Shown in pieces: positions 29,301 through 34,374 of a DNA stretch of 34,692 bases; position 1 is the stretch's first letter; the number at the start of each line of letters is the position of its first letter. The notes below the pieces were generated by a model. It was given only the letters and a program-made list of their open reading frames with translations, was not told the origin of the DNA and made no database searches. The position numbers and the translations under genes are program-made. The DNA lies in NCBI GenBank assembly GCA_030690985.1, contig JAUYFG010000138.1:1-34692 (forward strand), read 5' to 3'. This stretch comes from Pseudomonadota bacterium. Lineage in GTDB: Bacteria; Pseudomonadota; Gammaproteobacteria; Burkholderiales; Thiobacillaceae.

Positions 29301-29600
29301 ATGATTGATCTGACCAAAATTACCGGGTTCAACTGGGACGACGGAAATGCCCAGAAGAACGAGAAACACGATGTCTCCACGGCGGAATCTGAACAGATTT
29401 TTTTTAACGAGCCCCTACTGTTGTTGGCAGACCCGAAACATAGTGACCTGGAATTGCGCTTTCATGCCTTGGGCAAGACCGACGAGGGACGCCTGTTGCA
29501 CGTCACCTTCACGTTGCGGGAAGCGGGAAAGAACATTCGGGTGATTTCTGCCCGAGACATGCACCGAAAGGAGCGTCAAATTTATGACCAGACAGCATAA
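29301..29600 (+). CDS. brnT: BrnT family toxin
   Basis: FNWDDGNAQKNEKHDVS, RFHALGKTDEGRLLHVTFTLRE, IRVISARDMHRKERQIY. Confidence 0.9.
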   Translation: MIDLTKITGFNWDDGNAQKNEKHDVSTAESEQIFFNEPLLLLADPKHSDLELRFHALGKTDEGRLLHVTFTLREAGKNIRVISARDMHRKERQIYDQTA

Positions 29601-29850
29601 AGCCACGCCAGAATTTGCCAACGAGGCAGAAGAACGCGCTTTCTGGGAGGCTAACGATTCGACGGACTATCTGGATTGGACCAAGGCCCAGAGAGTAGTC
29701 CTGCCCAATCTTAAGCCGACCACAAAGACGATTTCTTTACGCCTGCCTCAGCATCTGCTGGATTCGATCAAGGCCGCTGCTAACTCGCGTGACGTTCCTT
29801 ACCAGTCACTTATCAAGGTATGGCTTCAGGAAAAGCTCCATAGCCACTGA
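29584..29850 (+). CDS. brnA: BrnA family antitoxin
   Basis: EAEERAFWEANDSTDYLDWTKAQRVVLPNLKPTTKTISLRLPQHLLDSIKAAANSRDVPYQSLIKVWL; overlaps brnT by 17 bp. Confidence 0.92.
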   Translation: MTRQHKATPEFANEAEERAFWEANDSTDYLDWTKAQRVVLPNLKPTTKTISLRLPQHLLDSIKAAANSRDVPYQSLIKVWLQEKLHSH

Positions 29851-31034: not shown

Positions 31035-32357
31035 TCATGCCGTCAGCGCAACTGGCCGTTCGTGACGGCAGATTGCGGTGTTCAGGAGGCAACTTAATTG
31101 CTCAGGCACGGAGGCTAAATCCGCGAGTTCGACGCTGGCGACATGAATGAATTGCTCACCAGCGCCGGGGAGACCATCGAGGATGCGGAAACTCCGCAGC
31201 AACCCGGCCGCAATGCCTATCTCGGCATGATGCGGATACAGCAGATACACATTACGCACACCGTAGCGATGGGCATAGCCCAGCATCTGGTAAACGTCAG
31301 CCTGGGCGATACCCTGATTGCGTTCCTGTTCATCCAGACGCTTCCACTTCGTGTCGATAATCCAGGCCGGTTTGCCATCGCGTGAACCTGTGATATCTGG
31401 CTGGGTCTGGAAAACCTGCGCGCCGCTTTCCAGGTCTTGCAGCAAATAACGCGTCGGCCCCTGCAAGGCCACCTGCCAGCCCAAGGGCGTAAAGACAGCC
31501 CGCGCGACTTCGCCGATGTATTCCTCGAACAGTTCGTTCATGTCGAACAGCAGGCTGAAGCCCTCCAGACCGCCGGCGGTGACATCCTGCGTACGGTTTT
31601 GCAGGATCAGCCGCGCCATCGCCACCAAAGACGCGTAACGCCGATTGGCCCGGTCGAAATGCAGGCGATGCCATTCCAGCGCGGCGGCGGGAACATCGCT
31701 GACGCCGTCCAACGCAAAATCCAGTTCCGCCAAACGACGGGCGTTGTCGCCATGCCGGGTCACACGGCGCAGAAAACGCACCGTGGTCTTCAACACCCGG
31801 TTCAGCGGCGTATCCACGGTGAATTCGTCGAACTCGCAGCGAAAGCGTTCCGGCTGAAAGGCGTTCAACGTGGCCTGCAAGCCGGTGAGCAACTTGCCGC
31901 GCAAAGCCGGCAGATTGTCGGTGTGGCGCTCATACCGGCTGATCAGGCCGCGATGCACTTCGGCAAACAACTTGTCGCAGAACAGGCGGATGTAAATCTC
32001 CAGAATGTTCAGGTTCTGCGCCGCCAGCCGGGCGATGTCGGCCTCATGGATTTCCAGCCTGCGAGTGCGCGCCAACATGCGGAACAGGTTGGTGCGCGTG
32101 CCTTGCTCATCCAGCCCGTCGATCTTGGGAATGATCTCGATGGCCTCCGCCCCAAGCTGTACCACCCCAACATACTGCCGCGCCTTCAAGGTAGTGCGGT
32201 TGGCGTGGGTGAACAAGCCGCCTTTCGCAGCCTTCAAGCGTTGCGACAACCGTTCCAGCGCATCCACCTGAGCATGGGTGACCGACTTCCGGCCAGCGCA
32301 GGAAAAGGTTTCGCCAATGGCGAAGGTCTCGTGTTCGCGCAGGGTGAGCAGAGTCAT
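31035..32357 (-). CDS. mcrC: McrC family subunit of a 5-methylcytosine-type (type IV) restriction system
   Basis: EIIPKIDG, NLPALRGKLLTGLQ, PLNRVLKTTVRFL, PD-(D/E)XK segment QTQPDITGSRDGKPAWIIDTKWK; start chosen at MTLLTLREHE. Confidence 0.93.
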   Translation of the reverse strand: MTLLTLREHETFAIGETFSCAGRKSVTHAQVDALERLSQRLKAAKGGLFTHANRTTLKARQYVGVVQLGAEAIEIIPKIDGLDEQGTRTNLFRMLARTRRLEIHEADIARLAAQNLNILEIYIRLFCDKLFAEVHRGLISRYERHTDNLPALRGKLLTGLQATLNAFQPERFRCEFDEFTVDTPLNRVLKTTVRFLRRVTRHGDNARRLAELDFALDGVSDVPAAALEWHRLHFDRANRRYASLVAMARLILQNRTQDVTAGGLEGFSLLFDMNELFEEYIGEVARAVFTPLGWQVALQGPTRYLLQDLESGAQVFQTQPDITGSRDGKPAWIIDTKWKRLDEQERNQGIAQADVYQMLGYAHRYGVRNVYLLYPHHAEIGIAAGLLRSFRILDGLPGAGEQFIHVASVELADLASVPEQLSCLLNTAICRHERPVALTA

Positions 32358-32470
32358 GTTGGTGTTTGCTCCAATGCGGACTTCTTCAGTCGCACCTTGG
32401 TTTCTTCCCAACAGGAAACGGCTTCAGAGCCGCAATCCAGCCGCGCGAGCCGTTCAGCAAGAATCGCCAT
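32354..32470 (-). CDS. Putative 38-aa micro-ORF, ATGA-overlapping the mcrC start
   Basis: MAILAERLARLDCGSEAVSCWEETKVRLKKSALEQTPT; TGA stop overlaps the mcrC ATG by 4 nt. Confidence 0.35.
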   Translation of the reverse strand: MAILAERLARLDCGSEAVSCWEETKVRLKKSALEQTPT

Positions 32471-32531
32471 GTCACAAGCCGGTTCCACGTGCCTATCCGG
32501 AAAATCAAGCTCGCACGATGGTGGGGTAGGT

Positions 32532-32816
32532 TCAATCAATGGTTTCAACCTGCCGCGATCCCACTTCGTAATGCTGCTTCGGGTTGTGGCGGATTTCGCG
32601 ATACATGGTGTCCGGGGCCAGATCGAGGCCATTCGGCCATACCACCACACCATGCTCCACCTGCGCCTGAGCCACTGCGGCATCTTCCAGCAACGCTTCA
32701 AAAACCCCGGTGCAGAACGCCCGGCTGATATGAATCGTGCCGTTCAGGCCATCCGCGAAACGGACCATCAAGGTGCGTGGTGCTACGGGGCGAACTTCGA
32801 CGACATCCCAATACAT
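32532..32816 (-). CDS. DUF2442 domain protein
   Basis: MYWDVVEVRPVAPRTLMVRFADGLNGTIHISRAF...GVVVWPNGLDLAPDTMYREI. Confidence 0.85.
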   Translation of the reverse strand: MYWDVVEVRPVAPRTLMVRFADGLNGTIHISRAFCTGVFEALLEDAAVAQAQVEHGVVVWPNGLDLAPDTMYREIRHNPKQHYEVGSRQVETID

Positions 32817-32829
32817 GGCGGTCTCCTTC

Positions 32830-33090
32830 TCAACGCAAAGGTTCAATAGGCTTGGGCTGCTGCTTGGACTGACATAAATCCCAGTCAGCCAATAGCTCAG
32901 CCTGATGCAATTCCGCCCAATCCAGCACCAACTGGGCCGCCCGTCGTGGCAGGCTGCCTTCGCTGATGCACAGTCCGCGTATATCGACGGAGGCTTTGAA
33001 TTCGCCATAAGTGGCGTGGAAGTGTGGCGGCGCGTGTTCATCCCAGAACATCTGGATGAGGATGCCGTAAAACATGCTGATCGTCGGCAT
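32830..33090 (-). CDS. DUF4160 domain protein
   Basis: MPTISMFYGILIQMFWDEHAPPHFHATYGEFKASVDI...LVLDWAELHQAELLADWD. Confidence 0.9.
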   Translation of the reverse strand: MPTISMFYGILIQMFWDEHAPPHFHATYGEFKASVDIRGLCISEGSLPRRAAQLVLDWAELHQAELLADWDLCQSKQQPKPIEPLR

Positions 33091-33093
33091 AGA

Positions 33094-34374
33094 TCAACCC
33101 GCATCCTGCTGTGTTTCGGCAACGGCAGGGTGTCCGCCATTTCCCGCTAACCGCTGATAAGCCTCAACGGGGAAAGGTCGCGGATTCACCCGATAACTGG
33201 ATTTCGCTTCATAACCCACATCCTGCCGCCAGGTTGAGACAGGAGGCTCAATAGAATCAATTTTAAGAAATCCACCACCTTGTTGAGGTTCGTTCAAGGC
33301 AACAGCAATCTTTGCCCAGTCTTCGTAGAAATATTCCTGCAAGAGCGGAATGACTTTGAAACGGAAGACAGCATCGAGTTTCCCCAAGCTATCGACATCC
33401 CAGAAGAAGGCATGGCCGATGGTGTGGTCGCGGTCGTAGAGGTATTCGATGCGGCGATTCAATGCGGTAAGCAGGGTGACAAGGTTGATGCCCGTATCAG
33501 TACCGTCCTGATTCCTCACCACCTTTCCACTGAGTAATTCCGGCTTCGGCATCATTTCCACGAACTCGAAACGCCGGCGCAAGGCGGTATCGAGCAGAGC
33601 GATGGATCGATCGGCGGTGTTCATGGTGCCGATCAGGTAGAGGTTTGACGGAACACCAAAGGGGTCGCCACCTGAGTAAGGCAAGACAACCTTGATTTCT
33701 GTGCCTTCTGACCTATTTTCAGCACTCAATCGCTTGTCGGGTTCCAGCAGCGTGATCAACTCACCGAAAACCTTGGAGATATTAGCGCGATTGATTTCGT
33801 CGATGATGAGGACGTACTCGTTTGTGGGGTCTTTCTCGGCACGGTTGCACATCTGGCGGAAAATGCCTTGGCGAATTTCATATTTCACCGCGCCTTTATC
33901 GTTGTCGATTATTGGGCGAATGCCTTCGACGAAATCCTCGTAGCTGTAGGACTGGTGGAAGGTAATAAAGGCGATGTGCCCTTGTTTGACCAGTTCAGCG
34001 TAATCGCTGCGTTCCTTGCCGCAAATTTCGGCGGCGATCTCACTGACTATGTAGGTTTTTCCGGTGCCAGGTGGGCCGTAGAAAATGGTGTTTAGGAATT
34101 GGCCATCAATTTCATCTTTGTTTGGATTGTCAGGCATTGGCGTGTGTATTAAATCTATGGAAACCGGTACTAACCATTTATTTACCTCTTTTGTGCAATA
34201 CTTTACAAAACCCTGAGCGCCACCTGGGCCTTCGTGATCACCAACCGCCAATGCCAATTCATCAATAGTGGCCTGCCCACCTTTGGCTTCCAGAGCGTAC
34301 TTGACTTTTTCCCATGATTTTTGGTTCTTCCCGACACTTGGGTAATATGGTTTGCCTATTCTGTATTTCATCAT
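33094..34374 (-). CDS. mcrB: McrB family AAA+ GTPase subunit
   Basis: Walker A FYGPPGTGKT, QSYSYEDFVEGIRP, Walker B VLIIDEINRANISKVFGELITLLE, GTMNTADRSIALLDTALRRRFEF; N-terminal ~90 aa winged-helix-like segment. Confidence 0.94.
   Translation of the reverse strand: MMKYRIGKPYYPSVGKNQKSWEKVKYALEAKGGQATIDELALAVGDHEGPGGAQGFVKYCTKEVNKWLVPVSIDLIHTPMPDNPNKDEIDGQFLNTIFYGPPGTGKTYIVSEIAAEICGKERSDYAELVKQGHIAFITFHQSYSYEDFVEGIRPIIDNDKGAVKYEIRQGIFRQMCNRAEKDPTNEYVLIIDEINRANISKVFGELITLLEPDKRLSAENRSEGTEIKVVLPYSGGDPFGVPSNLYLIGTMNTADRSIALLDTALRRRFEFVEMMPKPELLSGKVVRNQDGTDTGINLVTLLTALNRRIEYLYDRDHTIGHAFFWDVDSLGKLDAVFRFKVIPLLQEYFYEDWAKIAVALNEPQQGGGFLKIDSIEPPVSTWRQDVGYEAKSSYRVNPRPFPVEAYQRLAGNGGHPAVAETQQDAG

Follow-up and report, generated by a model that had tools for sequence, protein, structure and literature searches.

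Analysis of the window, by which we mean the whole stretch of 34,692 nucleotides, revealed a McrBC restriction operon in which two small genes separate the genes for the motor and nuclease subunits. Read along the minus strand, the order is mcrB, dhiT, dhiA, the tail of a decayed antitoxin gene, mcrC and an FtsZ-like gene:

33094..34374 (-), mcrB, McrB-type AAA+ GTPase motor subunit, 426 aa
32830..33090 (-), dhiT, DUF4160 (PF13711) toxin, 86 aa
32823..32828 (-), AAGGAG ribosome-binding site of dhiA, read from the sequence
32532..32816 (-), dhiA, DUF2442 (PF10387) antitoxin, 94 aa
32354..~32524 (-), decayed Unstab_antitox (PF09720-type) tail, located by tblastn with the L047 antitoxin
31035..32357 (-), mcrC, PD-(D/E)xK nuclease subunit, 440 aa; PF10117, 265.5 bits
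29990..31006 (-), divergent FtsZ/tubulin-like gene; PF00091, 39.5 bits; TIGR00065, 64.6 bits, below cut-off
29301-29850 (+), BrnT/BrnA toxin-antitoxin pair, just beyond the operon and in opposite orientation

The preliminary description had placed a DUF4160-DUF2442 pair between mcrB and mcrC at 32532-33090, and this span is exact, running on the minus strand from the dhiT start at 33090 to the dhiA stop at 32532. The placement was confirmed by Pfam matches (DUF4160, 74.1 bits with a cut-off of 23; DUF2442, 45.5 bits with a cut-off of 23.9) and by operon-like spacing: dhiT begins 3 bp after the mcrB stop, with no promoter detected upstream of it by a consensus scan, which is a weak test, and dhiA follows dhiT by 13 bp with AAGGAG ahead of it. 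The stretch at 32354-32529 was considered as a mere spacer, a reading that we rejected since it proved to be a decayed antitoxin gene, matching the intact L047 antitoxin at 47% over 49 aa (tblastn, E 5e-10); this tail had been missed in the preliminary description. Its TGA stop overlaps the ATG start of mcrC (ATGA), and its cognate ParE toxin is gone; a matching remnant is present in genome G1103.

The two subunit genes form a McrBC system by the usual marks, namely a signature-bearing McrB AAA+ GTPase and a McrC nuclease in a single operon, an organization also described in the CoCoNuT census (PMC11090510). McrB carries the Walker A motif GPPGTGKT and the McrB signature MNTADRS, matches AAA_5 in Pfam (67.8 bits) and the NCBI McrB model only partly, and is 50-82% identical to its relatives. 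About 90 N-terminal residues are without any Pfam match, and Pfam did not detect in this protein the modified-cytosine-binding domain (ADAM/DUF3578) of E. coli McrB. The mcrC gene is the sole PF10117 match in the genome; PADLOC gave no match for DhiT, DhiA or McrC.

The FtsZ-like gene begins 28 bp past mcrC, and its product is 29% identical to the regular FtsZ of the genome (contig C128), 32% to its nearest family relative and 46% to a fragment on contig C24; the gene was not seen beside the other mcrBC loci examined. BrnT-like toxins are reported upstream of some CoCoNuTs in the census (PMC11090510).

Misassembly, or foreign sequence in a genome with 5.28% contamination, was considered as a source of the arrangement and rejected, because the junctions are common to G1103 and to locus L045. 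G1103 is an independent genome with the identical layout, antitoxin tail included; across the entire 807-bp gap its DNA is 80.9% identical. In L045, the mcrB|dhiT junction is 98.6% identical to that of the window.

The DhiTA pair and selection on its toxin gene

DUF4160 and DUF2442 are the toxin (DhiT) and the antitoxin (DhiA) of the DhiTA family of type II toxin-antitoxin (TA) systems; the toxin of dhiTA from Dickeya dadantii 3937 inhibits growth in Dickeya and in E. coli, and is neutralised by its antitoxin (PMC8198452). The statement in the preliminary description that such pairs have been suggested to be TA-like but are uncertain in function is dated, the system having been validated as DhiTA in 2021 (PMC8198452). 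The Dickeya system shares its domains with the window pair and likewise has the toxin gene first and the antitoxin gene second, close together; however, it is a free-standing bicistron with its own promoter, which it represses (PMC8198452), whereas the window pair lies inside mcrBC, immediately past mcrB.

That the window pair is a TA system is supported by its family, gene order, conserved residues and selection. The DUF2442 gene lies directly downstream of dhiT, and DhiT has the conserved DUF4160 toxin residues HxxPH(F/I)H...Y...P...W...L...W as well as 16/16 residues in columns invariant across 13 relatives. Against the NCBIfam DhiT model (NF048015) it scores 76.8 bits, below the equivalog cut-off of 100, and we consequently file it in the DUF4160/DhiT superfamily and not as a strict DhiT. 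Among plasmid records, 33 have DhiT relatives and 186 have McrC relatives, each family being counted separately.

The AlphaFold model of DhiT is confident (pLDDT 95.5). Foldseek comparison with the PDB gave nothing better than E 0.75 and PDB sequence searches gave no match, so that structure was dropped as a way to the DhiT target. An active or metal-binding site might be made up of His19, His23 and His25, which are invariant. The DhiA model (pLDDT 78) matches NE0471 (2AUW) with a TM score of 0.71 over the query. NE0471 is a DUF2442 protein with an additional C-terminal helix-turn-helix domain; the window dhiA encodes the DUF2442 domain alone and is too short for such an extension.

Purifying selection on the toxin gene is strong. 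Compared with its G1103 counterpart, the window dhiT has 24.5 synonymous against 4.5 nonsynonymous differences, a dN/dS of 0.034; the corresponding ratios of dhiA (0.156) and mcrC (about 0.13-0.15) are higher. This indicates that the toxin reading frame is being maintained. The dS values of dhiT and dhiA are similar (0.67 and 0.65) and that of mcrC is somewhat higher (0.92-1.10), as fits a long common history within the operon. In genus g57, the second lineage considered below, nonsynonymous changes are also proportionally fewer in dhiT than in dhiA, dS being saturated there.

Toxin-antitoxin cassettes at the mcrB-mcrC junction

Filled junctions are rare. The survey drew its mcrB-mcrC pairs from samples at class, order and phylum level and from relatives of the window McrC, 76 non-redundant pairs in all, mostly from Pseudomonadota; many loci come from metagenome-assembled genomes and some end at contig ends. 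The gap is at most 60 bp or the genes overlap in 68/76 pairs, frequently by 4 bp. Longer gaps occur in the other eight. TA genes lie in four of these (L017, L045, L047 and the window); of the rest, two apparently owe their length to interrupted mcrB frames (L066 and L079) and two, both in genome G325, hold one small ORF that has no Pfam match (L018, 56 aa; L033, 59 aa). By eye, the 59-aa ORF is antitoxin-like. Small TA genes were named via Pfam or homology to neighbours; VapB-like partners, having no Pfam match, were named by position, and the ParE matches are slightly under the Pfam cut-off. Among the surveyed pairs, no recognised TA was seen at this junction outside two lineages, and nearly all junctions elsewhere were empty.

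The first lineage is the McrC clade of the window, in which TA genes of several families lie upstream of mcrC in all seven readable loci, the window included. In L045, whose McrC is 87% identical to that of the window, dhiT is broken by a DUF433/DUF5615 pair, dhiA is intact and a second DUF433/DUF5615 pair follows it. The L047 gap contains a lone nucleotidyltransferase gene, dhiA without dhiT, an IS1595-type transposase gene, an Unstab_antitox/ParE pair and a VapBC-type pair; the transposase gene, at L047:3714-4670, has 24-bp inverted ends and sits among the TA cassettes. A VapBC-type pair is located at the contig end in L046. G1094 has dhiTA with dhiT cut by the contig end and a stop codon inside dhiA, along with VapBC-type remnants, Unstab/ParE, DUF433/DUF5615 remnants and a nucleotidyltransferase gene; the gene after the latter, which has no Pfam match, is on our reading a possible HEPN candidate. 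In G1106, DUF433, a VapB-like gene and Unstab/ParE precede a broken mcrC.

The same cassettes thus recur in orders that differ among the loci of this clade, and some shared blocks are of high identity: the Unstab/ParE block is 97% identical at the DNA level between L047 and G1094, and dhiA of the window is 96% identical to that of L047, while mcrC is 86% identical. This is the pattern that exchange by recombination would leave. A short motif, GAAACC.TTGATTGAACCT, is shared between the position after dhiA and positions near other cassettes, and might be a recombination point.

The second lineage, genus g57 (G053 and relatives), is distant from the window on the McrC tree. Its junction is empty in G1074 and G1075, where mcrC starts directly after the mcrB stop, and is occupied by dhiTA in G053 and G1071 and by a VapBC-type pair in G1072 (PIN domain, 48 bits). 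In G1070, all that remains of dhiT ahead of dhiA is a few codons from either end, the interior of the toxin gene having been deleted. The preliminary description had called for neighbourhood statistics on DUF4160/DUF2442 within mcrBC operons; TA genes at the mcrB-mcrC junction recur in two lineages. Such a hot spot inside a McrBC operon is recurrent but rare.

TA pairs might be so common that some settle as neutral passengers in any harmless operon gap, and the abundance of TA genes in the genome and the instability of cassettes that leave remnants fit this explanation. On the other hand, the same junction was hit in two lineages and dhiT is strongly constrained. Moreover, random placement in the class-sample genomes with both families, the window's own genome being left out, would put about 0.005 copies of DUF4160 inside a mcrB-mcrC gap, and one was observed (G053), so that the arrangement is not due to chance. 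We consider a purely passive presence doubtful, if quite conceivable. General clustering in defence islands may be part of the TA signal. In G1071, which has dhiTA in the gap, ParD-like/ParE-like and YefM/YoeB pairs lie directly past mcrC (L142, 4554-5918, minus strand), and the attraction is hence not strictly confined to the gap.

Half-decayed modules offer a second view of the site. The antitoxin dhiA is kept in L045, L047 and G1070, as are the VapB-like and DUF433 genes of G1106 and the lone nucleotidyltransferase gene of L047. Altogether the antitoxin side survives in 6/7 half-decayed cases (two-sided 0.125, not significant), which is no more than suggestive that antitoxins outlast toxins. 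G1094, with a stop inside dhiA and dhiT partly visible, is possibly the opposite case, and owing to this locus and the small numbers we dropped the rule that the antitoxin always survives.

These remnants bear on the proposal that the nested TA system guards mcrBC by addiction, punishing its loss through post-segregational killing as CreTA does for CRISPR-Cas. Location between the subunit genes, strong purifying selection on the toxin and the preponderance of leftover antitoxins, as would follow if decay had to begin with the toxin, would all agree with such a guard, for which CreTA is a precedent. Yet Dickeya dhiTA did not improve maintenance of a mini-F plasmid in E. coli, where only a ccd system helped (PMC8198452), and toxins have repeatedly been lost with mcrBC retained (L045, L047 and G1070), both of which weaken the case for addiction. 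Junctions are, furthermore, empty within one genus (G1074 and G1075), and in G1106 the Unstab_antitox/ParE frames remain open and intact next to a mcrC that is internally deleted and frameshifted (L172, 7894-9534). We therefore judge a guard function unlikely.

Possible roles of a nested module

Most inserted modules have their first start close after the mcrB stop and/or their last stop abutting or overlapping the mcrC start. From these tight junctions we infer co-transcription and probable translational coupling, and with modules placed in operon direction McrBC expression should persist and the TA genes should be on the same transcript. Taken with the observed anatomy, family membership, recurrence, cassette exchange and decay, and selection, this leads us to propose, with a probability of about 0.72, that the window pair is a functional type II TA system of the DhiTA family, its DhiT presumably toxic, captured in operon direction at a mcrB|mcrC junction that serves as a TA landing and exchange site in two lineages. 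Its role is most likely that of defence-associated cargo, which would either add a second growth-arresting layer or persist selfishly in a permissive, co-expressed site. The earlier suggestion of a TA cargo is well supported, as unrelated TA modules occupy the same junction in relatives and in the second lineage.

The alternative suggestion in the preliminary description, a regulator triggered by inhibition of McrBC, finds no support as a function particular to DhiTA. That DhiTA is dedicated to sensing or regulating McrBC, with DhiA for instance binding McrB or the mcrBC promoter, could be read into the position of dhiTA between motor and nuclease genes, its presence in two independent mcrBC lineages and the retention of dhiA after loss of dhiT in three loci. 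Nevertheless, other TA families or nothing at all are found at the site in the same clades, and this exchange of unrelated families argues against a sensor made of DhiTA in particular. Both families are abundant in the genome, which encodes a single McrC, six DUF4160 proteins and ten DUF2442 proteins. One DUF4160/DUF2442 pair is within mcrBC; the remaining five DUF4160 and nine DUF2442 genes lie elsewhere, away from it. On our reading DhiTA is no dedicated component of the McrBC machinery, and we regard a sensing role as highly improbable.

A less specific form of functional coupling is easier to envisage. Shut-off of host expression by a phage, or a block of McrBC, might deplete a co-expressed, labile DhiA and leave DhiT to arrest the cell in an abortive response. 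The operon architecture would allow this, the several TA families at the site would be equally fit for such a back-up, and DarTG2 in a restriction operon provides a precedent; still, most McrBC loci have nothing at the junction and the toxin is frequently lost, and we hold a back-up role to be possible but less likely than not. It is also conceivable, though rather improbable, that the junction is a selected docking site at which translational coupling to both subunits ties release of the toxin to interrupted McrBC synthesis, with any TA module interchangeable. If so, a type IV restriction operon would become a two-layer, self-policing immune unit.

Known nested systems place the captured module in context. 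The nearest precedent is DarTG2, which lies between hsdS and hsdR in an RptR island, at what its authors called a potential recombination hotspot (PMC12255303), and which is, like the window pair, a TA system nested in a restriction system. That case concerns type I restriction and one TA system, whereas restriction here is of type IV (McrBC) and small TA modules of several unrelated families replace one another at a single junction; the DarTG2 island also contains an RptR-type regulator, of which none was seen at the window locus. CreTA in CRISPR-Cas operons is more distant: it is again a TA system nested in an immune locus, but it consists of an RNA toxin and an RNA antitoxin under the control of Cascade (PMC12737573). 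A term search of the main text of the CoCoNuT census (PMC11090510) found no mention of TA genes between mcrB and mcrC, and we found no report of such modules in the literature searched; further papers could exist.

TA and restriction systems are often neighbours in defence islands, and coupling between them is hard to prove. Here, among close relatives, one precise junction in a two-gene restriction operon has gained TA families, lost them and gained others in their place, and the natural variants (empty, dhiTA, dhiA only and VapBC-type) make the choice between guard, back-up and passenger directly testable. DhiT, a toxin without a solved relative, is thus met in a defence context, where selection on it is strong.
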